The notes under the pieces: generated by a model
The model's input: only the letters and a program-made list of their open reading frames with translations
What the model was told of the DNA's origin: nothing
Database searches by the model: none
Translations under genes and position numbers: made by a program
DNA from: Cylicocyclus nassatus
Taxonomy: Eukaryota > Nematoda > Chromadorea > Rhabditida > Strongylidae
Direction of reading: 5' to 3'
Length of the DNA stretch: 64,000 bases
Assembly: GCA_958299035.1 (NCBI GenBank)
Contig: CATQJL010000001.1
Location: 4,402,399-4,466,398 of the forward strand
Part shown: piece after piece, positions 2,437-53,752 of the stretch
Layout of the letters: each line of letters opens with the position of its first letter
How positions within the stretch are numbered: the first letter of the stretch is position 1

Positions 2437-3302
2437 TTAAGCGATATGTTTCAAAACCTTTCTCTTGGTCCATACGAAGTCGCACTTAGGCGTTTCAGGC
2501 AACGAAATGATAAGTGTATCATTCTCTGTGTTCCAGCGTAGTCCGAGTAATTTCTGTATCTGTTGCACTTTACATCTTTCGTTTTGTTCGAAGAATTCGT
2601 TCAACTCCTTTGAGTTGCTTGCGTAAGCACGTAGATTCATCCCGGCTGCAAGAAATAATTTCTTTGATTCCCTGTAGAAGGTGACGCCGTCCTTGATTGT
2701 GTCTACTCCATGAAAGTTGTTGTCAACGTAGGTGTTTTGAAGAAGATGTCGAGCTATATCAGTGGTAGTCGAAGACAGATGGAAATGTATCGTACCGGCC
2801 AAGAGGAACGGGGAGCAAATAAGACCAAACATACGCGTGCGAAACGATATATGACTAGGTTTTCTGAGCTTATAGGCTTCAATGGGTCATCTAACCATAG
2901 AAAACGAGTATAGTCCCGCGAGTCTTCATGTAAGCCGACCATAAGGAAGGCCTTTTCTATGTCACTTGAAATCAAGATCCTGTATAGTCTGCTCCGAATG
3001 AGAATCCCAGTGAGATCTGGCAGTAGTACGGGTCCGCGATATAAGATGTCGTTAATACTGAGGTGTCCTTTCAGTTTGGCTGAACCATCGAATACGCATC
3101 TTATCTTTATGTTTTCACCTTCTTTCTTAACAACTCCATGATGTGATAGATAATGGCAAGAATTCATAAAATCATTGATTGGTATTCGCTCAATGATCTG
3201 TCTTTTGAGTTGGTCTTTGAAAGTCTCATGATATTTCTGAAGGTAAGGAACATTCTGTCGCAGCGATCTATCGCGCTGAGAGCACAAGCGCGAATACGAC
3301 AA
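2437..3302 (-). pseudogene. BEL/Pao reverse transcriptase region
   Basis: Two overlapping frames cover the RT. The first (3,302-2,754) has the lead-in helix YLQKYHETFKDQLK, the GVVKKEG block, and SSDIEKAF with the first catalytic aspartate. The second (2,832-2,437) has CSPFLLAGTIHFHL and the active-site strand. The active site reads YVDN (about 2,719-2,730) rather than YVDD, so one metal-binding aspartate is replaced by asparagine. The frame ends in a stop at 2,437 directly before the conserved IYDPTGLFSP block. With a frameshift, a missing catalytic residue and a nonsense codon, this RT is dead. Confidence 0.85.
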
Positions 3303-4518
3303 GAGAAAAATTGTTGGGTAGTTCGGCTGGATTCATCTTGAATGGTAACTTGACGACGTACCTTTTCTGCAATTCATCATAGTAGACGGTATCATTGAAG
3401 TGTTTGAGACACTGTTCATCATCTGGCTGAGAAGGGTCGTCTAATATCCCAACTGTTTCGAGTCTCCAAAATTTGTTAACCAACTCAACAAGTTCCTTGT
3501 GATTTGGAGGACTTGAGGCATCGCCTGTCTCAGTGGTGGAGTTGGCGGTAGTACAGGCGATATAGTTTTTTGCTTTGAAAGCTCTGCCTACAATCATATC
3601 TCCGATAGCTGTATGCAAAATTCGATAATTCTTTGAAAGAGTTCTGTAATGGAAGTCTTCTGACAATATGATGTCCCAGAAATAATCATTTCCGATGAGA
3701 ATGGACGGTTTGCAGACGGAAAGGGTGACATTACCGGTCGATCTATCCGGAATGTGAATGCGCTGAAGATTTCCAGTAAGCAGCGGTATAGATTTCACCT
3801 GAAGATGTTTCACTCCCTTTTCGGTGTACAGGCCGATTATGTGGTTACGGCACTCCAGTTCCAGTGATTCAACTTTGCCAAAGGTGGAAAGGCTAATATG
3901 TTCGGTTCCTGTAGTGGCCAACTGAAGCATAGTAGCAACTTCTTCAGTGATGTATGATTTATTGGAACCACTGTCCAGGAAGGCTGTTACAGTGGTTTGA
4001 TGCGAGCGATCATTTGGATTGAAGAGCGTTACAGTTGTGCACATCAGTGCGGTCTGAGTCGTTAGGTTTGTTACATTGTTGGTTGAGCAAGTAACAGGAG
4101 CTGGTATAGTAGGAACACCGATTTGTGTGTCAGTTAGTTGTTCAGTCGGATCCGTAGAAGAAGTAACCATCTCCTTTTTGGGCTCTTCTAAATGCACGAT
4201 GTGATTCTGCAGTCTCGATGATTGATTTGAAGAGAATATCACATTTTGGCGGCGCGACGATTGTGTGGGAGTGTGATTGTTGAGACCAGGCGATGTAGAA
4301 GCCGTGTGAAAGCGATTCGATCGAAAACACAATGAAGAATGGTGTTTTCTTGAGCAAAACATGCAGCGGTATTTAGACGTGCAATCTTTTGTATTGTGAG
4401 AAGTCGAAAGACAATTGAAACAAAGTTTCCGGCGTTTCACTTGATTGATACGCTCTTTCATTGGGGGGAAGGCATCGCATTCTATTGCTAAATGAGCGGT
4501 AAAGTCACAAATGGGCAC
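3268..4518 (-). pseudogene. BEL/Pao zinc knuckles and aspartic protease region
   Basis: An open stretch of about 416 codons. At its start there are Cys/His knuckles: CFNCLSTSHNTKDC (C-x2-C-x4-H-x4-C) and CMFCSRKHHSSLC. The N-terminal half of an additional knuckle lies in the preceding frame. About 190 codons in is AFLDSGSNKSYI, the D-S-G active-site triad of a retroviral-type aspartic protease (DUF1758 type), which would cleave the polyprotein. The end of the stretch, around LPFKMNPAELPNNFSLV, is the usual lead-in to the BEL reverse transcriptase, and the frame breaks near 3,290 before the RT continues. This is the longest intact part of the element. Confidence 0.85.
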
Positions 4519-5703
4519 TTACGGTATTTTTTCCGTTTGTTTGGTACCTTGCGTGGCCGAGGCGCTTTGCTGAGTGCTACATGGAATCCTTGAGCTGGAT
4601 TTCTTTGATGGGCAGGAGGATGTGCGTGATACTCCATTTCGAACAACGTAGAGTCCTTTCGAACAATGTCCGTCAGTAGGTGGAGCAATTCCGAAGGGGA
4701 GACATTGTGGTCATTTGAAGTGCGGTCATAGACCAGACTTCTCACTCGCAGAGGGAGTTTATTGAGAAGCAGTGCCCCAAGGGCAGTCTCAGAGGAGTCA
4801 TCGTGATTATTTGCAAACTGCCGGACGAGGGAAAACATTTGATTGTATAGGTTGGGTAGATGACGTCCCTCAGGATCGCAAGGTGGTAATTGCGCCAGTT
4901 TGGTGAAAAGTATATGCCGGACGGTTACCTTGTCATCGTAAAGTGTCTTCAGTATGTCCATGGCGATGTGATAGTTTTCGGCGGTCATGGAAAGTCTTTG
5001 GATGCATTGTTACGCTCTTCCGAGTAGACATGAATTCAAAAGTGAGAATTTCGTGGTGTCGTCAAGTTGAGTCTTATTGGCGACAAGGGTTGCAAAACGA
5101 GCACTGAATTCGGGGTAATCCAGTAAGTTGCCATCGAAGGTTGGCAGATCCAATTTTGTAAGTATTGAAGCATCTACAAAATTGAAGAGATGCATTTGGT
5201 GCGGAAACTGTTGCTCGAGTAACGCGTCGGTTTTGACGTCTGAGGTTGTCACCGGAATCGTCATCGTTGTCCGCGAGTGTCCCATCAGATTCGGAAGGTG
5301 GATGCAGTTCTCGTTTTACGTATTCAGCGTCGAGAACATTCAAGACACCATCAAACTGTTCGAGGTTGTTGACAGCGAGAGCGATATCTGTACGATAGTT
5401 TCCATACTTCGTAACGTAGTCTTCAAAGACCTTTTGCTCAAGTGGGTTGGAGTCTTGAAGTGTTGTCCAGTCATCATGGAGTTTGACAGTTTTATTGTAA
5501 GCCTTCAATAAGTTTGCTTTCGTAGATACGAGTTCAAAGCGGAAAGAATCCAAATCTTCATTGGTCAAATGGCTGAGAATAGGTTCAGATGGTTCGACTC
5601 GGTATTCTTTGAAGATATCAGCAGCGGCTGAACAGTATCGTTGCAGTTGTCTTTTGAAAAATCCGATTTGTCTTCGAAGAACTTCGCTGTCAGAAATTGG
5701 CAT
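4488..5703 (-). pseudogene. BEL/Pao gag region
   Basis: This is the Gag-like N-terminal part, starting at 5,703. It begins with a helical, charged region, followed by a block of the DUF1759 type (LPTFDGNLLDYPEF near 5,130-5,170) and a helical stretch around TAENYHIAMDIL (4,985-4,950). The protein would package the element's RNA. Two breaks are visible: a frame change near 5,260, where the first frame loses similarity and a second picks up, and a TAA stop at 5,010-5,012 inside the conserved block. A third frame change occurs near 4,510 inside the first zinc knuckle. ORF lengths and order fit BEL/Pao Gag, but the gene is not functional as it stands. Confidence 0.8.
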
Positions 5704-5939
5704 CTCTAGAGGCGGGTTGGGTTGGTCTCAGGAGTGTTGATGATTGGCGGATGAAGGTGGAGAGTTGGCGATTGGAATTCTTTCGGTTATGGTTTTGGTT
5801 GTCCAGTTAGTTCGGAAGAGTGCAGCCGCACGTGAAGAGTTAGCGCAGTGGAAACTGACGGTGGCCCTTGCTGAGTCCTCGTTCCTTGTGGTGAAAAGGG
5901 TGCAATCCGCACAAACGATGGAGCAGGTGTGGTTGAGTA

Positions 5940-7620: not shown

Positions 7621-7647
7621 CATAAACTTTACGCCTGCACCCATATA

Positions 7648-8501
7648 TTAGGTTGGCACGAAAGTTCTTGCGTAATTCAAACAAAATTCAATAACTTTTC
7701 AAAGACTAAACCTAAATTCACAATCTTGTATGCTAAAAATATTAGAAGTCTTACGCTTCATGATAGATGTTTAAGCATAAGATTCCGTGAGCTGGACATC
7801 AAGAACAAAGCTCTCGAATATGGGGCTTCAAATTTTGCGATTTTGAGTTTGGTGCCAGAAAATCGCAGAGTGCCGCTAGCTAGCCGAAAAAAATCTGTAG
7901 AATTTACTTGCACAACAAAAGTCCATATGTTACTTTGGAAGGCTTTGATCTTGCACGGTGAAGCAAAAACAAAAAATTCGTGAAATAAGTCATGTTGCGG
8001 AAAAAATCCCCTCATGTCCGCAGTTTTCCGGCGAAAACACTTTTTTACAACCGAGAAAACGTCACAAGGCTCTAAATAGGCACTATGTCTGATTTCTGGT
8101 TGCAAGCTGTGTTTCTGTGGAAAAGTTAGAGCGATAAGGGGATTTGTCCTGTGAGATGAGAATTTTCACAAATTTTTTATTTTCGCGTTTCCATGCGAGA
8201 TCAAAGCCTGCTAAAACAACGTATGGACTTTAGCTGTGTAAGTAAATTCTACAGATTTTTTTCGGCTAGCTAGCGGCACTCTGCGATTTTCTGGCACTAA
8301 ACTCAAAATCGCAAAATTTGAAGCGCCATATTCGAGAGCTTCGTTCTTGATGTTCAGCTCACGGAATCTTACGCTTCAACATCCATCATGAAGCGTAAGA
8401 CTTCTAATATTTTTAGCATACAAGATTGTGAATTTAGGTTTAGTCTTTGAAAAGTCATTGAATTTTGTTTGAATTACGCAAGAACTTTCGTGCCAACCTA
8501 A
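7648..8501. mobile_element. Fold-back mariner-like MITE, TTAGGTTGGCACGAAAG family, copy 1
   Basis: The ends are TTAGGTTGGCACGAAAG and its complement. Inverted similarity continues inward for about 350 bp on each side, so the 854-bp element folds into a long hairpin with a short loop. Landmarks such as GCTAGCTAGCCGAAAAAAAT appear in both arms. The flanking bases are TA-rich, as expected of a Tc1/mariner-type insertion. No transposase frame. A second copy is at 45,506-46,336. Confidence 0.85.
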
Positions 8502-9042
8502 TATTTTATAAAAATACTCGTTCTCTTTATAATCGAAAAAGGGAATCATCTTGCATTTTTAAGACTTGAAGTCGATCTCCTTTTCATAGCATTCAAATTA
8601 TTCAGTGAATGACAAGCAATGTCTAAAGAAAGCGTAGGTGTGCCACACTGTGAATTGTTTCTGTACATTGTGTTTTACGAATCGTAGAAGGTCGCGGTAC
8701 GGCAATAAAAATTCAAGATTTCAAGGACTCAGTGTAAAAGTTGGTTGCTCCCCACTTTATCAAACAACAGCCACGTCCGTGCATACAAAATTCATTCTGG
8801 AATATTTACTTCCTACGTTAGTGATGTATAGCACTGATAGGTACCTTAAACGCCTCATTTCTTCACTGCCACAGGTGGCTGTTGCAGAGCGTTTTCGTTG
8901 CATCGTACTAGTCGCATTCAAAATGCTTTAAGGAACTGGGAGGACTTTATGAATATATCTGATCATTTGCTCGGCGATCTTCTTCTTTCGCGTTGACGAT
9001 CACAGGCATCCAACTTATTAAGCTCTCGTCCAATGGTTGTTG
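8502..9042. other. No supported gene
   Basis: AT-rich single-copy-looking DNA. A 97-codon plus-strand frame at 8,638-8,931 has no splice context or family match that I recognise, and I do not call it. Confidence 0.5.
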
Positions 9043-12654: not shown

Positions 12655-12919
12655 AGAACATGGCATTTTGGAACATGGCATTTTGCATTTTTGTTGCGCA
12701 TCAATTCGATAACACTTAAAGATGTTGAATATATGCATAAAGAATTTGGGAAAAGCTCTATGAGTCGTAAAGTTTCAAGAATTGTTCTCAAAAATCATTT
12801 GTCATTCGTTGCCACAATACCTCTTTTGCAAGAAGTACATACATTGTATAATATTTAATCAACGCCTTGAGTACACTCAACTGAAAATTAGGTTGCCGCA
12901 CTTCGACTGCAAAAATTTA

Positions 12920-13694
12920 TTAGGTTGGCACATAAGTAATGCAACTTTTTATATAACTTTTCTCTATTTGAACGTAGCGCATTCATTTTTTGGCAAAATA
13001 AGGAATATGATGTAAGCTTCTAATGCACACATTTTTGCCGAATTTTACCATCTTATGTGAGGATTACGGTAGGTTTACGGTACTATGGGAAAAATTTTAG
13101 AATGCATCAGATTTTGCTGAAACTTGGCCTATAGGGCTTATTTGACATGCTGATCACAAAAATGAGATCCGTTTCGCATGAAAAGGCCTTGTTCGTGAGA
13201 TCAAAAAATGAATTTCATTTCAGCGACAAATGAATATGATAATCGTGTTTACCGCATAGGATTACCCTATAGTGCAAAGTTATAGCGAATTCTGACTTTT
13301 CGCAGCTTAGTTATTGACAAATTGCCTTCAAAATTTGACGCATTTGACTTGTTCAACTTCTCAAAGGCGCCCCACCTTAATTTGTGTTTAAATTTCATTT
13401 CTTTTACACTGATTCCAAAGGGCCAACTTCCAGCTACATGCTGCCTATAATTGCTTTTTCATATGTTTGAATCAGGTTTCGTAGGACTTCATGATTGCCA
13501 AAAAATCGTGAAACCTCAATTTTCAGCAGTTTTCGAAAAATATTTAGATTTTTTGTACTACGTTATCAAAAATCAAACGGTTTGCGCAGACTTGCAGCCT
13601 ACATCACAATCTACATGATGCCACAAAATGATATTGCTACATAAAATAGGAAAAAAGTTATGGGAAAAGTTGCAAAACTTATGTGCCAACCTAA
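12920..13694. mobile_element. Fold-back mariner-like MITE, TTAGGTTGGCACATAAGT family
   Basis: Terminal TTAGGTTGGCACATAAGTAATG at the left mirrors CTTATGTGCCAACCTAA at the right, with TA-rich flanks. Both sides continue with GCAACTTTT and ATAACTTTT blocks. Noncoding, 775 bp. Related by its first 12 bases to the 7.6 and 45.5 kb elements but with a different interior. Confidence 0.8.
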
Positions 13695-14310
13695 TAAATT
13701 CTGGCTTAGGTATTGGTAATGACTACTGCCTCTGCAGTGGTGGCACAATGTTTTTTGGAGTAGAGATATAGCAAAAGGTTATTCCAAGAAAGCGTGGCGT
13801 TAGCTGCTTTTCAAAAAGTTCTTTAAGCTTCTCAAGCATTGATCAACTCAAAATAAATGAAGAAAGAACGTTGCAATATCTCTTAGGATCTTTCGCAAGC
13901 CAACCGCAATTTACGAACTTGGTAGTTTGCCTCATTATCTAAAAATGTAGACAAAGACTAAATAGCTCATTTAGACAACATCCAAATTTTGGAACCAATC
14001 TGAGGGGAAGTGGTGCTTCTCCCAAAAACGGGTTTCATACAACTCGAACCACATAAGCAGCAAATTTCGCTACGCTTATCCCAACCCCTTAGGTTCGTCA
14101 CTGCTGCTTTAATGTACAAAGCGACCCAAACGATGTGCACACTGTTCTCTGTACACTTCAAAACTTTCTACGAGATATTGAAGCATCTTCAATAGTGTAA
14201 TCACATTTTTAAGGAGCAGAAAAAACAATTGTTACGGTTTACGTGACTTAACATATTGCAAAAAAAAGCATTATAGTGACATGCAAATTTCCTATTTAGA
14301 GTCAGTCACT
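13695..14310. other. No supported gene
   Basis: AT-rich DNA. Overlapping short frames on both strands at 13,967-14,195 have no splice sites or recognisable content. Confidence 0.5.
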
Positions 14311-25650: not shown

Positions 25651-26225
25651 GTTTTTACTATGTCCCACTGCTTGCAAGTTTTATTTGCTTGAACTTGAGT
25701 AGTTGTCTGTATTCTTGGTCCTTCTCTCTTGCAGTGAATTTTATGGAACGTTTGAATTCATTTAACTTGTACATATTTCATCATTGTACCGTGTGCTTTT
25801 CCCCGACGATAAAGTGAATAACTGATATACAAGGCGGTCGCTTTCTGATGAAACTTATTTTCTTTGAAACATCGCATTTTTTGAAAAATTCGTTATAGAA
25901 AGCGTTATGATATGTGATTTCTGCAATTGACTCTGCTAATATCTGAGAAAAGCAGGGGGCTATTCAAAGTTACAGTAATCGTTTGATAAAGGATCGGTAA
26001 TAACGACAGATCAGTTGCGCTATCCGACCCAATTTGTCCGCCCACGCTGATCTTCGATCCGTGCTATTCCTGTTTCATAGCACTATGGATTTTCCTAGAA
26101 TCTTATCACTATCGATATGGTGTCAAAGCGCATGTTTTTCTTACTACTAATTCCCGTGATGATCATCAGCACTCAGGAACGGTTTCGGAGCATTTTATTA
26201 GAAGTAAGTCGTTTTTTACTTTCTA
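25651..26225. other. No supported gene
   Basis: AT-rich intergenic DNA without recognisable repeats or exon-like frames. Confidence 0.5.
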
Positions 26226-28190
26226 TTAAGTTGTTACATAAGTCTTGTTTTAATTTTTTACGACGATAAGTCGTAAACTCCATGATTTTAATGTGACTCC
26301 AGGGTATTATTCGATAGGGCAAAGCAAGATTTATAAGGTGGTGTGCAAAAAATAGCACCAACTTTGACCCACCTAAGTTTGCATCCGGAATGTGATCGCA
26401 CTGAAATCTTAAAAATTAGGAAATTTTTTATCTCCGTTGAAAAAATTACTACGCATTTCCAAATTGTTCAAGATTGCACACCACACCAGACACTCATATG
26501 TACCGTTGCTGTATTTGTTCCTCATCTAGAAATCGAGAAAACTAAAATTTTCTTGTTTTCACAGAAACGAAGCTGTGCTGTTTCCACTCATGTAATTGTT
26601 TACCACAAACCTTCAAAATATTAGGTCATTCCGAAAGTAATTTCGCTTTTTTAAATGGGCGCCACATTTGATGGAACAAAAATCTCTAGGAAATCTTGGA
26701 TGCATTCGATGCAGCATTTCATTCTCTCTAAAGGTTATGAAACCGTTGCAAAACAATCAACGAGCTTTCAGAAAATAACCAAAATCTGCGACCCATGCTT
26801 TTTGAGATGGTCAAGTTTCACGATTTTTTAAAACTTTCATATCAATCCTCAGAAGGAGTTCAAGTAACAATTCAATAGAGTAAACCTTATAGGATATAGT
26901 ACTACTTTTTTCTCCTTTCCATGGCTTGTCATACATTTTTAACAGAATTTTAACTGATGCTACTGATGTCCATACTTGAGCAGCTAAATCCTCGTAGTCC
27001 ATCAAAAGAAGAGCAGCTCGCGCACTATTCGATGCAGCACTTTCTCCTCTTTCTAATAGGTGTTTTTTGTTTCCAATTCATTTAGTTTCCGGGGAGAAAT
27101 CATCATAACTCATTTTTTAGCGAGCCCCAGGCTGTACCCGAAAAACTCGAAATTTGATATTTCATACCCGTAAACCCTCACTTGCTTTATAAAATTAATG
27201 CTAACTCACAGTACCATCTTGGTAGTCTTAAGTTCCGAAAACTTAAGATGTTTGATGCGATTGTGGCTGAGGTGGGCCTGCCAAAATCCAATAGTTCTGT
27301 TAGAAAATCTAAAAAAATATTACGGCGTGCTGCAAGGAAGACGAAAAAGTAGCACTTTTTCTATGAGCTTTGCTCTATCGAATCCTTGCTTGATCTCCTT
27401 CCGAGGATTGATATGAAAGTTTTAAAAAATTATGAAACTTGACTATCTCAAAAAGCATAGGTCGCAGATTTTGGTTATTTTCTGAAAGGTCATTGAATAT
27501 GCTGCAATAATTTTATAACCCTTAAAAAGAGGACGAAATTCTGCATCGAATGCCTCCAAGATCTTTTAGGAACCCTTGTTCCATCACATATGGCGTCCGT
27601 TTGAAAAAAGCGAAATTACTTTCGGAATGACCTAATATAAAAATGAATTTTCAGCTTCACAAGCTTTAGTTTTCAAAAAGTGCCTAATTTAGGCACTGAA
27701 CACCAGAGTGAGAAAAGCTTAGTTTAGTATTTTTTATTCGGTAGTTTTTCGAAAACTAAGGTTTGTGGAAAGCTAGAAATTTACGGCTACACTTCTAAGG
27801 GCTTGTACCATACAACTACATGAATAGACACAGCATAGCTTCGTTTTTGTAAAATAAGAAAATTTTCGTTTTCTTGATTTTTAGATGAGGCAAAAATACG
27901 GCAACGGCATATGAGTGTCTGATGTGGTGTGCAATCAGTGTGAGCAAGTTGGAAATCCCTAGGATTTTTTCAACAAAGACATGAATTTTCCCCAATTTTT
28001 TGAGCCTTCAGTACGACTCTTTTGGATGCAAACTAACTGCGGGTCGAATCTGGTGTGAACTTTTACATACGATCACGTAGAGCTTGCTTTGCTCTATCCA
28101 ACGGTACCCTGGAGCCCTATTGAATTCATAAAGTGTACGACTTATCGTCGTAAGAAGTTGAAGTGGAACAAGACTTATGTAACAACCAAA
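26226..28190. mobile_element. Fold-back mariner-like MITE (TTGTTACATAAGTCTTG ends) with another MITE in its loop
   Basis: TTAAGTTGTTACATAAGTCTTG at the left mirrors CAAGACTTATGTAACAACC at the right. The arms (26,226-26,620 and 27,636-28,190) pair over most of their length: for example GATTGCACACCACACCAGACAC versus GTGTCTGATGTGGTGTGCAATC, and the TTGCTTTGCTCTA motif near both ends. The loop is occupied exactly by the next entry. Confidence 0.8.
26621..27635. mobile_element. Fold-back mariner-like MITE, TTAGGTCATTCCGAAAGT family, nested
   Basis: TTAGGTCATTCCGAAAGTAA and its complement end a 1,015-bp hairpin with long arms: CGACCCATGCTTTTTGAGATG versus CTCAAAAAGCATAGGTCGCAG, and CAACTCATCAA-like blocks inside. 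TA on both flanks. It sits in the loop of the larger fold-back. Its terminus matches the mariner relic at 31,349 and the pair at 37,163/39,214. Confidence 0.85.
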
Positions 28191-28677
28191 TAGTTTTCCA
28201 ACCAATGTTGACAAAAAACGAATCCTACAATTTGAACTACACGAAGCAGCTGGGTTTCGGCACTAGCTGATCATTACCGTCCTATTTTATTGTCCTAAAA
28301 ATTCGAAGTTGACCATTCTATACTGTTTAGAAAAATTAGGCGGCAAGCGATTGCGGTTTTTGTTCAGGTACAATGAACTTACTACTATCACAATGGAAAA
28401 ACGTCAAGGTTTTTTTTATCTTTTGGAGGAGAAAAATTGAAAATTCAAAAATCAGCTTTTGCTTTTTCTGAAAGCCGAAAAAGCCGCTTTCTAGAGTTCT
28501 GGTCGCAAAATTCTCAATTTTCTCGCAAAATTTTTTGAAGAATCCAGGCTTTATTGCGCTGCCCAACCGACCAATAATGAGCAATAAGATGAGCTGTTCA
28601 CCACATCCTGTTTCACGTTAGGCCAATCAATCCCTTCTCACACTAGAAATTTCGGAAAAAAATCTTTCTCATATTGA
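28191..28677. other. No supported gene
   Basis: AT-rich DNA with poly-A/T runs; nothing recognisable. Confidence 0.5.
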
Positions 28678-30985: not shown

Positions 30986-31348
30986 AGCAAAAATTGTGTT
31001 TATCTGATGTCTGCCCGCTAGAAGATCCCGTAAAGTACAAGAAGAGCAGTACTTCACTGATATTCGATGCATCTTCCTCTTTCCAGCGTTGTATTGTGGA
31101 TGCGGTTCTTCGTGTGCTGCGATAAGCGCCGTTAAGTTTTGATAGAGTTTTGAGGGAACTTTGTTAGGAGGCAGAAAGAGCACACCTTCTGCATATCAAA
31201 GCAGTTTTTTATTTGGATCCTTCAGAATTTCTTCTAAATCTAATTTTTTTCAGAATTTTCCAAATGATGATGAAAGTCTTGAGAAATGAAACAATTGCAA
31301 AACACAACTTCGGAGCACTAAGGTTCCATAATTTGATTTTTTACTATT

Positions 31349-35006: not shown

Positions 35007-35403
35007 ATTTGCACATTATTTTGTGGAAGAAAAGTATAAATTTCTAGGCCTCATTGTAAATGCTTTGGTGTCTTGTTTTCTCAACACTGACTCCTGAGAA
35101 TGCATAAAAACCTGCAGGTTTTGGAAAAATTCGCGAAAATCATTATGCAGTGGGGTTCATCAGGTTCATCAAATTATGAAATTATGAAAATTGCTGAGCA
35201 TCATCGCATGACTTCTGCTACCTTCAAAACCTTCAGCTGTTGTGTTTAAGTAAGGGAGAATATAAGAATAACAAAATCACTAACGTGGAAAGGATGAAGA
35301 AAAAAACGACCGAAATTTTGAAGGCAAAATTCACAGCTACACCTGAGTTTATGCTGATGGCGGGCCGTAGCTAAATAGCTTCCTAACCAAACTCACAGAT
35401 ACA

Positions 35404-35644
35404 GTTGTTTTCAATACGTATTGGTTTTTTCTACCGTATGCCTTTCAGCCTCAACATGACGTGGATTGGTGTGGATTGGTGTGGATTGGTATGGATTGGT
35501 GAGGCGCCGCATCGCTTCGGGCTTGCGCCGCGTTGCTTCTCTCGGCGGCGCCGCACCAATCCACACCAATCCACACCAATCCACGTCATGTTGAGGCTGA
35601 AAGGCATACGGTAGAAAAAACCAATACGTATTGAAAACGACTGT
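35404..35644. mobile_element. Perfect-arm palindrome with GTGGATTGGT minisatellite in both arms
   Basis: ACAGTTGTTTTCAATACGTA at the left mirrors TACGTATTGAAAACGACTGT at the right. Arms of about 110 bp pair almost base for base, including GCCTCAACATGACGTGGATT. GTGGATTGGT is repeated about four times on the left and three on the right. The tip (about 35,506-35,547) is GC-rich (GGCGCCGC). Probably a MITE; it abuts the larger hairpin at 35,703. Confidence 0.8.
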
Positions 35645-35735
35645 ATGTCCAATTGCCTGAACGCTGCCCGGAAACATAGTAGATCGCCGCGGGGTAGAGG
35701 ACTACAATACCGCTCACATTTTTTGAAAAATATAC

Positions 35736-35822
35736 GCGAATGTATGGACATGTATGGACATGTACGGACATGTCCATACATGTACGGACATGTCCATACA
35801 TGTATGGACATGTCCATACATC
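35736..35822. repeat. ATGTATGGACATG minisatellite
   Basis: About seven units of TGTATGGACA/TGTACGGACA in alternating orientation, so the tract is itself partly palindromic. It is shorter in the right hairpin arm (40,368-40,398), showing the arms now differ mainly by repeat length. Confidence 0.85.
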
Positions 35823-37243
35823 AGCGTCGCGTGGCCATATCTCGCTTCAGAGTGGACGGATTCTGAATTCAAAGCCACCATTCGATTCAGCTCAGCGCGG
35901 AGAATCTTCTGATATATTGGAAGTGGGGGTACGATGTCTTCGATATTCCGTTTCCAGTTTTTTCAATTTGTTCTGCGGAGGTCCTTTCGCGAATATGTGA
36001 AGCAAAGCCTACCCAACATAGAAGACTTTACAGAGTACTATTCGATTATACTGTTCTTGTAGAATATTGTGCGCTAGAAAATAGGCTCAGACTTCTTTCC
36101 AAAGGAGATAGAAGCGTTGGTGAATTTTAGAAAAATCACGCGTTTTTGAATTCTACTCGCCATAACTTCTTTCGAAATGAGTATATTTTGAATCCGAGAG
36201 CAGAGCCTTGCTCAGCTCATCAAGGCGAATCTTTTTGTATACAGCATGTTCTTGATATATCAATTTCTTGAATCTTTCTGAGGACGTCTTTTCGCGAAGG
36301 TGTAAAGCAGCGAGCATTGTCCCGAGTAAATTCCAGCAAGGATCTTTCGATAGCACTTTTTCTGTAGATTATGATGTGCTAAATAGTAGCCGCAGGTTTC
36401 TTTTCAAAGAAAACAGAACGGCTGGTGAATTGTGGAAAAATCTTGTCGTCCCAAATTCTACTCGCCATAGCCGCAGGATACGAAGCTATCTTGCTAAGCA
36501 GATGTGAGTTTCGAAATCAGCAGGTCGGATAACCTCTGTGAGCAAGTTTTCCGATATGTTCGGGTTATTCCATTTTTTCTCGTTTTACGCTCCAGAAGCT
36601 CGCCGATGGATTTTGGTCAAAATGTTGATGCTCCTGAATTGTAAGGAAACTTCGCTCATAGAGGTTTTCAAACACGCTCTTTACGAAAATCGTGGTCTTC
36701 GAGGATTACAGGGTCTTTTTGGAGAGATAGGATGAGGTGACTGTAACTTCATCACGAAAGTACGTAACTTTGGCTGCACTTCTCGTCTGTCAGAAACCTT
36801 GCCTGCGTGCTTTTCTCAGTCAAAGTTACTAGGAACTGTGCTATCGAATGGTGCATTACTCAGGCTCCAGTCTGTGAAATTCGCCGAGTTACGAGCCTAC
36901 GAAAACACGTCCTCATGAATTTTGCCCAAAATGTAAAGATCGCATATCTCGTCGAAATTCCTCCGTGAGCGCTTGTATGACGCTCGTTGCAGATATTATG
37001 TTCGCTTCGTCGAACGACTCCCACTGCACTGAATATGGTGCTTGCGTCTGCTTCAGCTGCTCAATTGAATATCAAAGCTATTTCGTGGTTGGAGCCCAAA
37101 GCACCAAATCTAACACAATAAGATCCATTAAAAATGTGAAAGGATTTGATAAGCGCGTTGTATTAGGTCATTCGGAAAGTTTTTTCCCTTTTGCGCCTTT
37201 GATGTTGATACCGTATTTTAAGAGGGTGCCAGGGGGCTGATAA

Positions 37244-37806
37244 GGGTTGTTTCATACTGCCGCACTGACTGCAGCAGTCTGCAGCTGACTGCACTGACCG
37301 CTGCAGACTGCTGTAGACTGCAGCAGACTGCAGCAGACTGCAGCTGACTGCACTGACCGCAACGACCGCACAGACGCTGCATGCTTTCGTAAAAGAGAAA
37401 ACATTTGCGATTATGTCAAAACACCGTGATTTACGCCTAGAAAGTTCCTAGGTTCTAACTTACTCTTTTGAATCAAATTTTGGCGATTGTTTTTCATTGG
37501 TATGCCTATATTTGTTCCGATTTCCCTTTATTGCATATACCTGTTTTACTTTCGTTCATATTGTCTTTTGGATCTAGGCATATATTGTTGTTGATCGTTT
37601 GGGCTACAACTATTTATCCTCTCTACCTTTACGGAAGAATACAGCGATCTGTGTGGCCCTTGGGGTCAGTGCGGTCATGCAGTCTGCTGCAGTCTGCTGC
37701 AGTCAGCTGCAGTCAGCTGCGGTCAGTGCGGTCAGTTGCAGTCAGCTGCGGTCTGCTGCAGTCTGCTGCAGTCTGCTGCAGTCAGTGCGGCAGTCTGAAA
37801 CAACCC
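37244..37806. mobile_element. PIF/Harbinger-like MITE built from CTGCAGCAGA repeats
   Basis: GGGTTGTTTCATACTGCCGC at the left mirrors GCGGCAGTCTGAAACAACCC at the right, with TAA on both sides (37,241-37,243 and 37,807-37,809). Both subterminal regions are tandem arrays of about 10-bp units (CTGCAGCAGA, CTGCAGCTGA, CTGCACTGAC), in opposite orientation, so the arms pair. The 260-bp centre is AT-rich. TAA duplication and GGGTTG-type ends suit PIF/Harbinger. Confidence 0.8.
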
Positions 37807-38928
37807 TAAGGGTTGCCATATATGGATCTGTAGAGGAAGTCTTCTAGTTTCTGGGATCCCACCAAAATTGCAGAAGACGTTTTGTGGGGAAGTTTACGAG
37901 GCTCTAAATCCGACATACGAAAACACGATTTTCGAATAATTGTATTCTCTAAGCTTGAATTCGAGCGTAAGACCGTTGAGGAAACCATCATTGTGCGTAA
38001 TGCATTTGCCAAGACCACGCTTTCTTGAGGTAGGTTCAAGTTTACTTCAGAAAGTTCAGATCTAGAGAAGTGAAAGCTAATATTTTGCAGTGTTCTGGAA
38101 GGTGTTTCTGCCACATAAACGAGCATCTCAGAGGGTCCTTTGGAACAAATCGCAATTGTAGCTGCGTAGAATTATCAGCAGGCCCTGAAGTGTCATATAA
38201 CCCTATTAGGAGCCATCTTCGCTAAAGCTGCAATACCGAAAAATTTCACCGACATGTACCCTACAAACTGTCGCACTTTCAGATTGAGGGCGCGTTGACT
38301 CTGCTTTCGTCGCTCATAATTTTATGTAGCCATCCTTTGCCGGCCTGGGTTATTAATTACAACAAAAAATTGGCCAAGTGCGGCTATAAGAAGCGACAAT
38401 GTGGTAAATCATTTGGAATAAGCATTGAAAACATGATCAGAACAATCTGTCATTCCAAAAGGTTGATGCACTCAAAATTAATGTAATCCTGCTGGTCTTG
38501 TACGCTACAAACTTGCTAAAATGCGATTGTACTGTAAGAGCAGAGTAGTGTGATGTCGCTCTGAAGACTGTTTGTCAAAATTTCAAAAACTGAGCACTTG
38601 CACGTATAAGCTATGAGAGATGCCATCCACGCCCATGACTCCGCCAAACCACATGTAAGAAAAGTGGCTCTCACAAAAGGGGTTGACTGCGCACCGAGGT
38701 TCCTGTTTATTTTTCAAACTCTATAGACCTTCCTTTACCAGTTACCAGTTTTTCCAATTCCTCGGTGCCTATTAAAAAATATTAGGACCTAATAGAGATT
38801 GACTAAGCAAAAACGCCTTTTCAGGCTTTAGTGATTCCTCTGAGATCATTTCGCAAGAGAAAAGCACAAGAGCACTATAAGAGTGTAACCAGAAATTTGC
38901 TGAACACAATGCAGTTTACAGTCTGCCC

Positions 38929-39125
38929 CAATCCTAACCAGGCCAAAATTGGCTTGGCGGGAGTGCGCGTCGCGAGGGTTTCGCGCCACTTCTGCGTCTA
39001 GCTAGTCTGCTCTCTCCTCAATCTCTTCGCTCTCCGCGACAGCGCGCGTATGCAGCGCAAGCCCCTAGCGCTGCGAGCGCACAAATTCAGCCGACGGTTC
39101 GGCCTGATCCCGATTGGGACAGGCT
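38929..39125. mobile_element. Small MITE with CAGYCTGYCCCAATC ends
   Basis: CAGTCTGCCCCAATCCTAACCAGGC at the left mirrors GCCTGATCCCGATTGGGACAGGCTG at the right. 197 bp, GC-rich, noncoding. Target duplication unclear. Confidence 0.65.
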
Positions 39126-40434
39126 GTATTTAATGGAAAAAGGTTGAATCAGAAAAAATTGTTCTCGTTTGAATTTGGAGGTGCAAAAACGAAAAGACTT
39201 TCCGAATGACCTAATACAAGCACGGAGGAATTTCGACGAGATATGCGTTCTTTACATTTTGGGCAAAATTCATGAGGACGTGCTTTCGTAGGCTCGTAAC
39301 TCGGCGAATTTCACAGACTGGAGCCTGAGTAATGCACCATTCGATAGCACAGTTCCTAGTAACTTTGACTGAGAAAAGCACGCAGGCAAGGTTTCTGACA
39401 GACGAGAAGTGCAGCCAAAGTTACGTACTTTCGTGATGAAGTTACAGTCACCTCATCGTATCTCTCCAAAAAGACCCTGTAATCCTCGAAGACCACGATT
39501 TTCGTAAAGAGCGTGTTTGAAAACCTCTATGAGCGAAGTTTCCTTACAATTCAGGAGCATCAACATTTTGACCAAAATCCATCGGCGAGCTTCTGGAGCG
39601 TAAAACGAGAAAAAATGGAATAACCCGAACATATCGGAAAACTTGCCCACAGAGGTTATCCGACCTGCTGATTTCGAAACTCACATCTGCTTAGCAAGAT
39701 AGCTTCGTATCCTGCGGCTATGGCGAGTAGAATTTGGGACGACAAGATTTTTCCACAATTCACCAGCCGTTCTGTTTTCTTTGAAAAGAAACCTGCGGCT
39801 ACTATTTAGCACATCATAATCTACAGAAAAAGTGCTATCGAAAGATCCTTGCTGGAATTTACTCGGGACAATGCTCGCTGCTTTACACCTTCGCGAAAAG
39901 ACGTCCTCAGAAAGATTCAAGAAATTGATATATCAAGAACATGCTGTATACAAAAAGATTCGCCTTGATGAGCTGAGCAAGGCTCTGCTCTCGGATTCAA
40001 AATATACTCATTTCGAAAGAAGTTATGGCGAGTAGAATTCAAAAACGCGTGATTTTTCTAAAATTCACCAACGCTTCTATCTCCTTTGGAAAGAAGTCTG
40101 AGCCTATTTTCTAGCGCACAATATTCTACAAGAACAGTATAATCGAATAGTACTCTGTAAAGTCTTCTATGTTGAGTAGGCTTTGCTTCACATATTCGCG
40201 AAAGGACCTCCGCAGAACAAATTGAAAAAACTGGAAACGGAATATCGAAGACATCGTACCCCCACTTCCAATATATCAGAAGATTCTCCGCGCCGAGCTG
40301 AATCGAATGGTGGCTTTGGATTCAGAATCCGTCCACTCTGAAGCGAGATATGGCCACGCGACGCTGATGTATGGACATGTCCATACATGTCCATACATTC
40401 GCGTCTACTTTTCAAAAAATGTGAGCGTATTGTA

Positions 40435-40820
40435 TATGTCGCCGAAAGGGAGCGGCTCCCGTGGTCATTTACTACAAATACGCACGCTTGCACAAGCCGG
40501 AAGTGCGTTTTCGCAGGAAGTCCGCGCGGGACCCTCGCACATTCGGCGACATATAGTTCTCAACCCGTCGCGGCGGTGATTACGGTAGTCGATGCGCGTG
40601 TTGCCGCAATTGCCTTCGGACTCTGCTGCGGACGTGAAGAGCGGCAACACATTTTGATGCTTTGTCTGTCTCTCGCTCTGATTACTTACTACTTTGTAGT
40701 AGAAATGATCTCAGCCGCGATTATGCTTTTAAGTCCTGAGGTTAAGATACAGTCGCGCATCGGCAGTACGGAACGGAACTTCGTCTCGTGTTTTTTTAGT
40801 TTCTTATTTAGATAATAATA
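40435..40820 (+). other. Unexplained open frame next to the hairpin
   Basis: A 142-codon frame (40,387-40,815) starts inside the hairpin arm, so its beginning is not genuine. Its second half encodes a hydrophobic segment (about 40,650-40,740: HILMLCLSLALITYYFVVEM) in a GC-richer context. I see no splice sites or family match. A TCGCCGAA/TTCGGCGA inverted pair at 40,438 and 40,548 suggests a small MITE instead. Confidence 0.25.
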
Positions 40821-45050: not shown

Positions 45051-45505
45051 ATTATGTTACCCTGGAACGATGCCGTTTGATTTAGTGTCACATATAATTA
45101 TTAAACTAACCTAGAGCCTTAGTATGTAATTATCATTGAGAACATGGAAATTGTACTCAAGCTTTATAAAGTGCGTGCTACCTGTGAGCTAATTGCTACA
45201 TGGAGAATATGAATTTACTTACATCTAGGCCTTCGGGCTTCGTCTATATAATCAAGGAAAAAAATTAGCGCGTGGGATTTCTAATCGCACTCAGCTATAT
45301 TTCATTCTTGAAATATCAATAAAGAAAAGGAAATTTCAACGTTTCTTTCCTTCGTCTTCCATGCCGCCGAATTCAAAAGAAATACTAACCCTCTTTGGTG
45401 GGTGTTGTGTGATGTGTGAATGAGAAATACCAGCGATTTTTCATACCTTTGAAATTTCTAACTCGTTCCTTATTGCGAAGAAGATATTATAAGATATGGA
45501 ACATA
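45051..45505. other. Upstream flank of the cysteine-rich gene
   Basis: AT-rich, presumably promoter-side DNA. No clear motif. Confidence 0.4.
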
Positions 45506-46336
45506 TTAGGTTGGCACGAAAGTTATTGCGTAATTCAAACAAAATTCAATAACTTTTCAAAGACTAAACCTAAATTCACAATCTTGTATGCTAAAATTAT
45601 TAGAAGCCTTACGCTTCATGATGAACGTTTAAGCCTAAGATTCCTGAGCTGGACCTCAAGAACGAAGCTCTCGAATATGGGGCTTCAAATTTTGCGTTTT
45701 TGAGTTTGGTGACAGAAAATCGCAGAGTGCCGCTAGCTAGCCGAAAAAAATCGTAGAATTTACTTACACAGCAAAAGTCCATACGTTATTCTAGCAGGCT
45801 TTGATCTCGCATGGAAACGCGAAAACAAAAAAGTCGTGAAATATGTCATTTTGCGGAAAAAAGCCCCTCATGTCTGCAGTTTTCCGGCGAAAACTTTTTT
45901 TTACAATCGGGAAGACTCGCAAGGCTCTAAATAGGCACTAAGTCTATTCTGGTTGCAAACTGTGTTTCTGTGGAAAAATTAGAGCGATAAGGGGATTTGT
46001 CCTGAAATGAGAAATTTCACAAATTTCCATGCGAGATCAAAGCCTGCTGAATAACGTATGGACTTTTGCTGTGTAAGTAAATTCTAAAGATTTTTTTCGG
46101 CTAGCTAGCGGCGCTCTGCGATTTTCTGGCACCAAACTCAAAATCGCAAAATTTGAAGCCCCATATTCGAGAGCTTCGTTCTTGATGTCCAGCTCACGGA
46201 ATCTTATGCTTAAACGTCCATCATGAAGCTTAAGGCTTTTAATATTTTTAACATACAAGATTGTGAATTTAGGTTTAGTCTTTGAAAAGTTATTGAATTT
46301 TGTTTGAATTACGCAATAACTTTCGTGCCAACCTAA
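45506..46336. mobile_element. Fold-back mariner-like MITE, TTAGGTTGGCACGAAAG family, copy 2
   Basis: Same termini and interior as 7,648-8,501, including GCTAGCTAGCCGAAAAAAAT in both arms and the central GGTTGCAAACTGTGTTTCTG. It is shorter by about 20 bp through small indels. TA-rich flanks. Confidence 0.85.
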
Positions 46337-47192
46337 TATCATTTGTTGAAGCAAAGCAGTCTTTACAAGATAAATTTGTCGCATAAAGCAATCTACGTGA
46401 AGTTTGAAAAAATCTAAAAATTTTTAAGTAATTGAAAATCACAACTCCTTTTAGAAACATCCTGCAAACCTTCAATTTGGTCACACATATAGCACCCACA
46501 TCAGGCATTCAATGGGTTTAGCGGATTTTTTTAAGACTGGAAATAAATAAATAGAAAAGGACCAAAAATAAAAAATGCCGTTTCTTTTGGAGAGGGTGAG
46601 AAGGTTTATGTTAATTCTGTTATGTCTGACTAGCCCTAGTATATAGAGTCAATGTCAGGATTCCACAGTTGCCTATGCTGAAGCGCGTCAATTTCCAGTT
46701 CCTCATTTTCTAGCCAGGAGATTAGTGCAGTACATATGAATGACTGACGTGATAAGTGATTTTCTTGAGCAAGTTGGAGATTTGTATGATTTTTGAGCAA
46801 AAGTTCGACTTTTGGATGCTTGAGAAATTTTGTTTGAACTTTGCGCGTGTAACAACATGAATAATTACATTCCTTATGTCAAGGTAAGATAGCTTTTGAA
46901 TCGTCTTTGGTGTTTTTATGGAGAGATGAAGGAAAGAACCTGGCGTCTTTAACACCCATCGCCGCATGTGCCAGCATAATGCGTTGTCGAAAAAGCAACT
47001 GAGTGCGTGTGGGTCCGGCCTTTAACAAGTCAGTGCTTCTATTCACAGATTACTCTGGTACCATTTACAAGTCTTGGAGCGTGGAAATCTGCTCCATTGT
47101 TATCATGGTCAATAGAATCCGGAGTTCATCCCGCATATCTCGACTGGTCGGTCAGGCAGGGACTTCTTGCACGAGCTCTTCGATGTTGTTCC
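46337..47192. other. No supported gene
   Basis: AT-rich DNA; open frames on the minus strand at 46,722-46,967 have no splice context. A GC-richer stretch at 47,000-47,190 precedes the hAT relic. Confidence 0.4.
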
Positions 47193-49378: not shown

Positions 49379-49513
49379 TATATACATGATAACAGCAAGG
49401 TTTGCTGTAAACATCTTTTCAGTCAGTTTGAGCAAATCAGTTTTGAATTCTGCACTGGAGCACATCATGATCATATACCTAGTCGCAGAATATGCAGAAT
49501 TACAAAGATCATA

Positions 49514-50397: not shown

Positions 50398-50833
50398 AGG
50401 CAGCGTCCAGGCAAGATCCATCCACCCAGATTAGCATATAGTTGTAGAAAGGGGCCCATGAGTATCCGATCTGCGTTGGTCTAATCCTTTGACGTGCCCT
50501 CTAAAAGGAGATACGGGCCTGTGACGTATCACAAGCCGCCCTTCGTATCACAAACCACCCCTGAGGACGAGTGCTTACGCAGGTGTGCGGTTGCATTGCA
50601 GTTGCATTGCAGTTGCACTGCACACTGCAATGCAACTGCATCCGTGCAGTTGCAGCTCCTCCCGCTGGTATGACGATGGGGACGAACAAATGAAACTCGT
50701 CCGCTCCTTGAAGAGAGGGTCCCCAAGAACTGGTTTTTTGGGAGTTTTGAACAATTTGGACTTTACAACTGTAATCAGAGCCACGGAAAGGCCCCAGAAT
50801 GGCAGAAACATGAGAGGCGAAATTTTGCCCGGA
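50398..50833. repeat. Truncated TTAA-type MITE, copy 4
   Basis: TTAA then AGGCAGCGTCCAGGC at 50,394-50,412, matching the left end of copy 1. No right end is found before the RTE element. A TTGCATTGCAGTTGCA repeat palindrome lies at 50,590-50,660, like the GTTGCAGTTGC tract of copy 3. Confidence 0.55.
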
Positions 50834-51064
50834 CCGAATGATGAGGGTCCCATTACTCATCTGTCGCACGTCCTTCTTCCTGGACTTCGTTTCTTGCAGA
50901 GCGATAATGTGGTACTTGATGTGCTCTGCAACGTCGAGAAGAGCGTGGAGGTCGGCGCAAATGCCGACCTCCCGCTCTTCTCGACGTTGCAGAGCACATC
51001 AAGTACCACATTATCGCTCTGCAAGAAACGAAGTCCAGGAAGAAGGACATGCGACAGATGAGCA

Positions 51065-51679
51065 ATGGGACGGACCCTCATCATTCGTGGTAAAAAAGTT
51101 CCATCACGAAGCGTGGGAGGCGTCGGCTTTGTCGTCCACCCATCTATCGTCCATCTTGTCGATTCGCACGAGATCCTATCATCTCGACTAGGCATCCTAC
51201 AACTACACCCTCCACGTCAGAAGACCATCAGCATCATCAACTGCTACTCGCCAACATCAGCAGCTGACGACTCAGAACTAGATGCTTTCTACGAAGATGT
51301 GGAGGAGGTCGTCCGCAACGAGAAGTCCTTTCATAAGTTTATTGTGGGCGACTTCAACGCGAAAATCGAGATGCCACTGGAAAACGAATATAGGATCGGG
51401 AAGTTTGGATATGGGCTCCGGAACGAAAACGGTAACGGTCTTGTTGGGCTTCTTTCCGCCGCACGACTTTTCCATGGAAATTCCATTTTCATGAAGACAG
51501 AACATTGCCGGTGGACTTGGGAATCGCCCAACGGAACGACTCATGCGGAGATCGAACACATTCTCATCAACCGAAGGTGGAGCTTGCTCGATGTCTCAGT
51601 AGTTCCATTTTTCTGCATTGGCTCCGATCACCGCCTCCTTCGAGCGAAGGTACGATTCAGTCGAAGGCTGGAAAAGTAG
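51065..51679 (+). pseudogene. RTE endonuclease domain
   Basis: An open stretch of 204 codons with the features of an apurinic-like endonuclease that nicks target DNA for priming: [18 protein letters not shown], the metal-binding VGDFNAK (about 51,340-51,365), and the catalytic [10 protein letters not shown] (about 51,620-51,650). The N-terminal catalytic strand (LQETK) lies upstream in another frame at about 51,010. The domain is followed by a broken linker to the RT. Confidence 0.85.
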
Positions 51680-52133
51680 GTCTGCCAACAGTGCCGCAAG
51701 AAGGAAGAATGTCGCTTATGACGGTGACAGGCTGGAGGAGCTCATATCAAGTTGTGACTGGCCCATCGAAGAGGAACCAACGTACGACTACGACAGGCTT
51801 CTGAAAGGATTGCGAGCTTGCGGAGAGTGCGCCTCAGTGACTTCCGAGAAGAACGTGGAACGCATGTCGAAGACCACCAAGGAAATGCTCGAAAGAAGAA
51901 GATTTTTGAGGCAGGATCCGAATGCCACCCATCTCGAGCAACTGATAACCAACGCCAGTTGCAGCTTGGAGCCAGCTTTGTAGGAGGATCTCAGGAAGTA
52001 CAGGCAAGCCAAGATACTGGAAGCAGCCGAAGGAAGATGAAGTCTCAAGAAGTGCCGAAGAGACCTCTGTGAATATCACGTACCGCTGGTTGCGCTATTA
52101 AACGAAGACGGGATTCCGACTTCTCCCCGATAG

Positions 52134-53249
52134 ATGGAATCTATCGCGAAGAACTTCTATACCAACCTCTTCCGCTCATCAGCACCCGTGCCGATGCCCG
52201 TTGTTCCCACTGGAGAAGTACCACCAAGAATTCCACCTGCTGAAGTGCGCACAGCGGTTCAGACCATGAAGACGTCCACGGCTCCAGGACCAGACCATCT
52301 TTTCGTCGAACTTTTGCGAGCTGCAGGACAACGTCTACACGAGATTCTCGCGTCGCACCTAACATCTTACCTTCAGAAAGAAAGGACTCCCGACCAGTGG
52401 TGAACATCAAGAACCGTCCTCATTTTCAAGAATGGTGAACGGGAAGACCTTCGGAACTACCGTCCAATATGCCTGCTGAGTGCTGTACAAGATTTTCACG
52501 AAGATTATCCTCGCTCGATATCTAGGACACTGGATGAAGCCCAACCCCCAGAACAAGCTGGATTTCGCAAAGGATTCAGCTGCATGGGCCACATCCAGAC
52601 GGTTTCGAGGGTTATAGAAGTGTGCTAGGAATACCGACTGCCTCTCGTCCTAATCTTTGTCGACTACGAGAAAGCCTTTAACAGCGTCGAAACCAACGCC
52701 ATGTCTGCGCTAGTCGATCAAGGAGTGGATCCAGCTTACGTGAGGACGTTAGCCGATTGTTAAGGACTGTACAACGACGATGCAGCTGTTCCATCGCCCC
52801 CGACTATTCCATTTGGGAAGGGGGTCCAACAAGGCGACACAATTTCGCCGAAGCTATTCACCGCGGCCTTGCAGTGAGTGATGAAGTCACTGTAATGAAA
52901 CGAGAGAGGCATACGAGTTGCTGGAAGATTCCTGTTGAACCTTCGTTTTGCGGACGACATCGTTCTCTTTTCGAGCACTATCACTGAAGCAGAGACGATG
53001 CTGAAGGAACTGAACGAAGTAGGGAAGAAGATCGGATTGCGAATCAATCGGAAGAAGACTCAGTTCATGAAGAACGCTCTTTGCGAAGATGCAGAAATGG
53101 AAATGGAAGGCAACCCTATCACGGGGACGTCTTCTTACGTGTATCTCGGACGTTTGATGAACGTGGAGAATGACTTGAGGGAAGAACTTCACAGGAGAAG
53201 AAGAGCAGCCTGGGCCGCCTTCGGGTCTCTGAAGGAAGCCGCCAACTGA
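52134..53249 (+). pseudogene. RTE reverse transcriptase domain
   Basis: Ordered RT blocks in shifting frames: TAPGPDHLFVELLRA (about 52,280), LRNYRPICLL (about 52,450), QAGFRKGFS (about 52,555), FVDYEKAF (about 52,660) with the first catalytic aspartate, and LRFADDIVLFSS (about 52,940) with the FADD active site. The final part (52,935-53,249) is open for 104 codons. Stops at the DQW site and elsewhere inactivate it. Confidence 0.85.
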
Positions 53250-53259
53250 CGGACCCGGA

Positions 53260-53752
53260 GCTTCGTGTCCACCTGTTCGACTCAGCCGTTCTCCCGGCGC
53301 TCTGTTACGCAGCTGAGACTTGGGCTGACACCGTGGCCACTTCGAAAGCTTCAAGGACCACCCACGGCGCGCTGCAGCGTAGTCTTCTGAAGATGACGCG
53401 ACACAAACAACATCCCGTCGGACTTCGCAGTACGGATATGAGGAGAATGTCCCGTCTTCGTGACCCAGCGGATTACGTTGCGAAAGCGAAGCATCGATGG
53501 GCCGGTCACATTATGAGAAGAACAGACGACAGATGGACACTAAGAACATCGGAGTGGGTTCCTCGCGAAGCAAAACGTCCTCGAGGAAGACCTCCAACGA
53601 GATGGGCAGACGTGTTTGTGGAACGGATGGACCAGCTGAGAAATCAGCTAGATACGATTTTTGCACCTGGAACCCGTGGACGCAGCCACCTACGTCAGCC
53701 AAGAAGATCGTGGATGTCTGAAGCGAGGACAGGGAGAAATGGAAACTTCTGA
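53260..53752 (+). pseudogene. RTE C-terminal domain
   Basis: Continuation in another frame: ALCYAAETWAD (about 53,298), then RLRDPADYVAKAKHRWAGHI (about 53,455-53,510) and PRGRPPTRWADVF (about 53,580-53,620). This is the thumb-distal region common to nematode RTE proteins. It ends with no clear terminal stop homologous to full-length copies. Confidence 0.8.

Follow-up and report, generated by a model that had tools for sequence, protein, structure and literature searches.

What is the 4.7-kb hairpin that spans positions 35703 to 40434 of a 64,000-nucleotide stretch of the genome of Cylicocyclus nassatus, a cyathostomin nematode (Strongylidae) of the horse gut: a single unit, a recent duplication, or a transposon with a history of its own? 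The stretch, hereafter the window, comprises positions 4,402,399-4,466,398 (forward strand) of contig CATQJL010000001.1 in assembly GCA_958299035.1, and all coordinates below are counted within it. A preliminary description, made from the letters alone, had treated the hairpin as one 4.7-kb unit with nearly identical arms. Our analysis resolves it into a fold-back of about 2.7 kb and a nested 2-kb element with mariner-type ends, and we consider it probable that the hairpin is a non-autonomous fold-back (long terminal inverted repeat, TIR) DNA transposon of about 2.67 kb that received later insertions. A C. nassatus preprint, which we take to be the description of the assembly, forms part of the background. 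It is cited in PMC10682056. A search of the literature on transposons of strongylids and Cylicocyclus, with preprints outside its scope, gave no mention of Cylicocyclus among the 20 best-ranked of 493 papers.

Arms, loop and ends of the fold-back

The outer element and its borders comprise the following features:

35703-35704, no strand: TA, left candidate target-site duplication, at which the high-identity inverted homology stops
35705-36977, + strand: left arm (long TIR, 1,273 bp); identity with the right arm 99.26% (1,218 aligned columns)
35740-35821, + strand: subterminal minisatellite, period 10/20 bp, about four copies of ATGTACGGACATGTCCATAC (Tandem Repeats Finder, TRF; arm alignment)
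36978-37162, no strand: loop of the original hairpin, 185 nt including the TA at 37161-37162; left sequence without a right-arm counterpart
39215-40432, - strand: right arm (long TIR, 1,218 bp), from the inverted-repeat search and the arm alignment
40433-40434, no strand: TA, right candidate target-site duplication, from the arm alignment and flank comparison
40433-40555, no strand: 123-bp palindromic stretch resembling a miniature inverted-repeat transposable element (MITE), arms 73.6% identical, TA on both sides, abutting the right end

Alignment of the two arms over their full length yields nine substitutions (six transitions and three transversions) and three indels of 1 bp, 50 bp and 4 bp, the second lying in the minisatellite and the third at the inner edge, with a longest exact run of 527 nt. 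The inverted-repeat search pairs 35798-36967 with 39221-40390 (1170 nt, 99%) and, as outer pieces, 35711-35771 with 40367-40427, whereas the longest exact inverted match obtained by chance, when the window was shuffled ten times under a first-order Markov model, measured 16-18 nt. The arms are real and lie far above chance. Their near-identity, for which the preliminary description had set a floor of about 95%, is thereby confirmed, and its estimate of about one mismatch in the 300 bp compared can be set beside 2.2 mismatches per 300, the mean for the arms as a whole. The inner limits, given there as 36,967 and 39,221, move to 36977 and 39215. The reported difference in minisatellite copy number is borne out as the 50-bp indel, by which the right-arm minisatellite (about 40367-40398) is shorter than the left, and the 195 bp at the inner left edge that had been counted as a further arm difference turn out to be the 185-nt loop.

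The spacer between the arms measures 2,237 nt, and because 2,052 bp of it belong to a separate inserted element, the hairpin proper amounts to about 2.67 kb; without the insert and one TA it is 2,674 bp long and consists of the 1,273-bp arm, the loop and the 1,218-bp arm. Two features of the fold-back class are thus present, namely arms that form most of the element around a 185-nt middle, and tandem repeats within the TIRs in unequal copy number. In ten stop-free pieces taken from an arm or reaching out of it, a subset of the arm open reading frames (ORFs), no Pfam domain was matched above the cut-off, a DDE/D or other transposase included, which agrees with the earlier remark that the arms carry no recognisable transposase and is expected if the outer element is non-autonomous.

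The arm ends read CAATAC(C)GCTCACATTTTTTG, with one extra base at the left end. The 99% inverted homology ends at a TA on each outer side, the flanks reading GGAC-TA-CAATAC... on the left and ...GTATTG-TA on the right; in this one copy the TA, a dinucleotide itself palindromic, is a candidate for the target duplication of the outer element. The 123-bp MITE-like element seems to have used the right TA as its insertion site. When both it and the fold-back are removed, the flanks (35680-35704 and 40554-40580) join as GAGGAC-TA-GTTCTC, a quasi-palindrome centred on TA with 9/11 symmetric positions, a level that 0.1% of the TA sites in the window reach (P 0.001); with the 123-bp element retained, symmetry falls to 3/11, which 57% of these sites reach. 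This comparison was made post hoc and covered eight site/flank combinations. Two of them stand out, the present fold-back and the element at 12914-13700 (7/11, P 0.012), and the other six, including both TATTAGGTCATTC-family insertions, gave P values of 0.31 to 0.82. The symmetry of the flanks suggests that the TA is indeed the boundary and that the element entered the middle of a short palindrome.

The nested insert and its surroundings

Between loop and right arm lie three further features:

37163-39214, + strand: nested non-autonomous insert of 2,052 bp, delimited by its own mariner-type inverted ends and TA flanks
37243-37807, no strand: fold-back inside the insert, arms 89.8% identical, with period-10 minisatellites
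38917-39128, no strand: MITE-like stretch inside the insert, with short inverted ends (31 nt, 77.4%)

The reading of the hairpin as a single 4.7-kb unit is rejected, since 37163-39214 has inverted ends and TA flanks of its own. These ends start TTAGGTCATTCGGAAAG... and match over 36 nt at 88.9%, the flanking TAs stand at 37161-37162 and 39215-39216, and the insert thus occupies the border between loop and right arm. Its 20-nt end plus TA recurs at six sites in the window with at most three mismatches (vs none in 100 shuffles), namely both ends of the insert, both ends of an element at 26619-27637, position 31345 and a diverged site at 49512. Without the two nested stretches the insert measures 1,275 bp. 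A search of its end against viral contigs, a nematode-poor collection, gave no match. The label "mariner-type" is tentative and is based on the TA, the length, a TTAGG start, which we take to be a feature of mariner-type ends, and the window elements that start TTAGGTTGGCAC.

From the insert, 24 stop-free pieces were scanned, comprising all 23 of at least 28 aa listed in 37808-38916 and the piece 37459-37806, and none matched a Pfam domain, mariner transposase or other, above the cut-off. The sub-threshold matches of arm and insert pieces, among which there is no transposase, are DUF1758 (E 0.0025), DUF5690 (0.027), OrgC (0.056), DUF2195 (0.071), E3_binding (0.13), Ig_ILCR1 (0.14), PG_binding_5 (0.18) and DUF5851 (0.22). 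The DUF1758 match lies at 37809-38171 (-), and the same domain is matched above the cut-off in an ORF at 3271-4518 (-); the stretch in the insert is perhaps a captured scrap, and could be one of a BEL/Pao element.

The neighbourhood is rich in inverted-repeat elements: fold-backs make up 18% of the window, and arm identity was measured for 14 inverted-repeat stretches besides the hairpin. The earlier statement that all other fold-backs have diverged arms is correct for 12 of these (73.6-95.7%) and fails for the two at 35399-35646 (98.0% over 102 columns) and 50835-51087 (98.3% over 119), which are near-identical and short. The period-10 TRF arrays of the window (six rows, five arrays) are confined to three fold-backs and have unrelated units, at 35461-35584, 35740-35821 and 37267-37797.

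A second nested hairpin, at 26209-28221, has arms at 26209-26599 and 27812-28221 (82.0% over 384 columns) and a loop of about 190 nt, which carries the fold-back 26619-27637 (arms 84.4%) with mariner-type ends like those of 37163-39214. Flanking TAs and TTAGGTTGGCAC... ends also mark three more elements, at 7645-8504, 45503-46339 and 12914-13700. Those at 7645-8504 and 45503-46339 are fold-backs whose arms are 90.1% and 94.0% identical, respectively, and they share 90.6% identity with each other. Together with 26619-27637 and the insert, the three elements bring the two-ended elements with TTAGG ends to five, two of which lie in hairpin loops. Because a TATTAGGTCATTC-ended element sits in two independent hairpin loops and the fold-back seems to stand at the centre of a quasi-palindrome, one might suppose that TA-inserting elements favour exposed hairpin loops, with cruciform extrusion as the signal and nested "Russian-doll" palindromes as the outcome. 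We regard this as very doubtful: the targets of the two loop insertions have symmetries of 3/11 and 4/11, neither of them symmetric, and the sample is small and was assembled post hoc.

Elsewhere in the window, 2437-5727 (-) holds retroelement remains with a DUF1758 peptidase domain, presumably BEL/Pao-like, and 50525-53752 (+) holds retrotransposon remains that we assume to be RTE-like. In the latter, an ORF at 51062-51676 (205 aa) matches endonuclease-domain proteins and shows 100% identity, from end to end, with a Cylicocyclus nassatus protein, which places the window in this species or very near kin; other named matches, among the best 120 of 370, come from nematodes such as Necator, Heligmosomoides, Angiostrongylus, Haemonchus and Strongylus. 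When ten ORFs of the window were scanned against Pfam, the DUF1758 match in 3271-4518 (-) was the one above the cut-off, and the six of them located at 31.7-47.4 kb gave none. Rfam and tRNA searches of the window returned no matches.

Origin, age and alternative explanations

A transposon history would run as follows. The outer element most likely entered a TA site by cut-and-paste, with a transposase from another copy that would bind the ends and perhaps also the subterminal 10/20-bp repeats. Later, the 2,052-bp element with mariner-type ends would have entered the TA at the border of loop and right arm, two smaller inverted-repeat elements would have entered this insert either before or after its arrival, and the 123-bp MITE-like element would have entered the right TA. 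As the pieces scanned gave no transposase, the mobility of the outer element, and with it mobilisation in trans, is presumed.

Several observations weigh against this history. A TA at the edge of a palindrome, taken from a single copy, is weak evidence, and the flank palindrome is less striking when 60 nt per side are scored with gaps (P = 0.03); alternatively, the arms may continue outwards here in diverged form, and the boundary would then shift. No second copy of the outer element was found in the sequences searched: the arm has none elsewhere in the 64-kb window, and a search of the window with the end pattern matched the right end alone, the left end having its one extra base. Outside the window, in collections all expected to contain little nematode DNA, the arm end had no match among viral contigs and the left arm none among plasmids; an arm ORF had none in a protein database and 16 pattern matches in viral contigs, of which none was confirmed, and another arm ORF had 386 pattern matches in genome contigs, again with none confirmed.

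These absences would suit a one-off inverted segmental duplication of ordinary sequence, arising for example by template switching at a replication fork and later hit by the mariner-type element, with no transposon involved in making the arms. The lack of a transposase domain in the pieces scanned points the same way, and the TAs at the edges could be chance. Such a non-transposon duplication is conceivable, but we judge it unlikely, as the sharp TA-bounded ends, the subterminal tandem repeat and the short loop are those of fold-back elements, and the same 64 kb holds the 14 further inverted-repeat stretches measured above. An assembly artefact, by way of a fold-back chimeric read or mis-joined haplotypes, seems to us very improbable: long inverted repeats are a familiar trouble spot for assembly, but the arms differ by nine substitutions and three indels, minisatellite length among them, 2.2 kb of orderly nested sequence separates them, the flanks differ, and one of the proteins predicted from the window has an identical counterpart on a 107.7-Mb contig. 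It is also highly improbable that the locus is a functional source of double-stranded RNA (dsRNA) and small interfering RNA, selected for silencing; a near-perfect 1.2-kb inverted repeat would, on general grounds, give long dsRNA if read through, which the preliminary description saw as a possible feed for RNAi, but the transposon reading accounts for the structure unaided.

The age of the fold-back bears on a further alternative, which can hold together with a transposon origin. The arm divergence of 0.74% suggests a recent origin, and at 2.7e-9 substitutions per site per generation, a rate from C. elegans, it corresponds to about 1.4 million generations, a figure that applies only without conversion. 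The preliminary description had proposed either a very recent duplication or conversion between the arms; the low divergence fits recency, and conversion is also possible. Under conversion the fold-back would be old, its arms kept alike, and the 0.74% undatable. Four further elements lie in or at the fold-back (37163-39214, 37243-37807, 38917-39128 and 40433-40555), many for a young structure unless some came ready-nested, arm identity is 82-94% in nine of the 14 stretches measured elsewhere in the window, and the arm differences cluster mildly, leaving 527 consecutive columns clean (P = 0.06 if randomly placed). That clustering is not significant, however, and the insert may have carried its nested elements on arrival, in which case only two insertion events need accommodating. 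Nor does 99% identity require conversion, given that TIR pairs of the Tm1 element of root-knot nematodes average 93.15% identity and 5/61 elements reach 100% (PMC3169594). We hold conversion possible but on the unlikely side, and lean towards youth.

Taken as a fold-back transposon, the locus is a clean long-arm example from a strongylid (cyathostomin) nematode, and it illustrates the growth of a hairpin by nesting. If other copies exist, they would provide a natural test of dsRNA silencing of long inverted repeats, and of transposon targeting to hairpin loops.

Comparison with known systems

Fold-back and long-TIR DNA transposons are already described as a kind, so that the earlier suggestion of a possibly undescribed element type no longer stands for the type; the present family may be undescribed. 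Tc4 of C. elegans is a fold-back Tc element whose long inverted arms match almost perfectly around a short loop; it has non-autonomous forms, and its autonomous copies carry a DDD transposase. By this description the C. nassatus element is set apart in arm length, its arms measuring 1.2-1.3 kb vs about 0.77 kb in Tc4. Tc4 targets CTNAG and duplicates TNA (PMC11071193), and on inspection no TNA fits the present flanks.

Transposase-less copies of Galileo, a member of the P superfamily in Drosophila, consist almost wholly of TIRs of up to about 1.25 kb, whose tandem repeats, with a unit of about 210 bp, are unequal in number from one TIR to the other, and its duplications, determined from chimeric copies, are of 7 bp (PMC3573991); Galileo in D. 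willistoni and the Tetris element are treated in PMC4168063 and PMC4079207, respectively. As far as these sources describe it, Galileo shares with our element a TIR-dominated non-autonomous form with unequal tandem repeats, and differs in its unit of about 210 bp and its 7-bp duplication, as against a 10/20-bp unit and TA here. A 7-bp target duplication is, by eye, absent from the flanks.

The Mutator/Foldback element Tm1 of root-knot nematodes has composite TIRs with a short motif of variable copy number, non-autonomous forms, mostly 9-bp target duplications and the end motifs CCTACCC and CGGTTAA (PMC3169594). The likeness lies in its being a nematode element with non-autonomous forms and unequal copy numbers of a TIR motif. 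Inspection of the flanks revealed no direct match of 8-10 bp, and the arm ends given above carry neither Tm1 motif.

Of the Tc1/mariner traits, the outer element has a candidate TA duplication, in its single copy, and the insert has TA at both sides together with inverted ends of about the 30 nt typical of the group. The mariner-like element bandit of the hookworm Ancylostoma caninum has a TA duplication, 32-nt inverted ends and a length of 1,285 bp (PMC2041818). Judged from that account, TA and inverted ends are common to bandit and the insert, and their lengths are close, 1,285 bp vs 1,275 bp without the nested stretches; the likeness is one of length, TA and the presence of inverted ends, and, unlike bandit, the insert has no transposase match in its 24 pieces.

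In architecture, the outer element resembles Tc4 and the two-TIR copies of Galileo, whereas its flanks show the target duplication of neither Tc4 nor Tm1 nor Galileo. It would thus seem to work like Tc4, Galileo and Tm1 while being, by the tests applied, a member of none of them.

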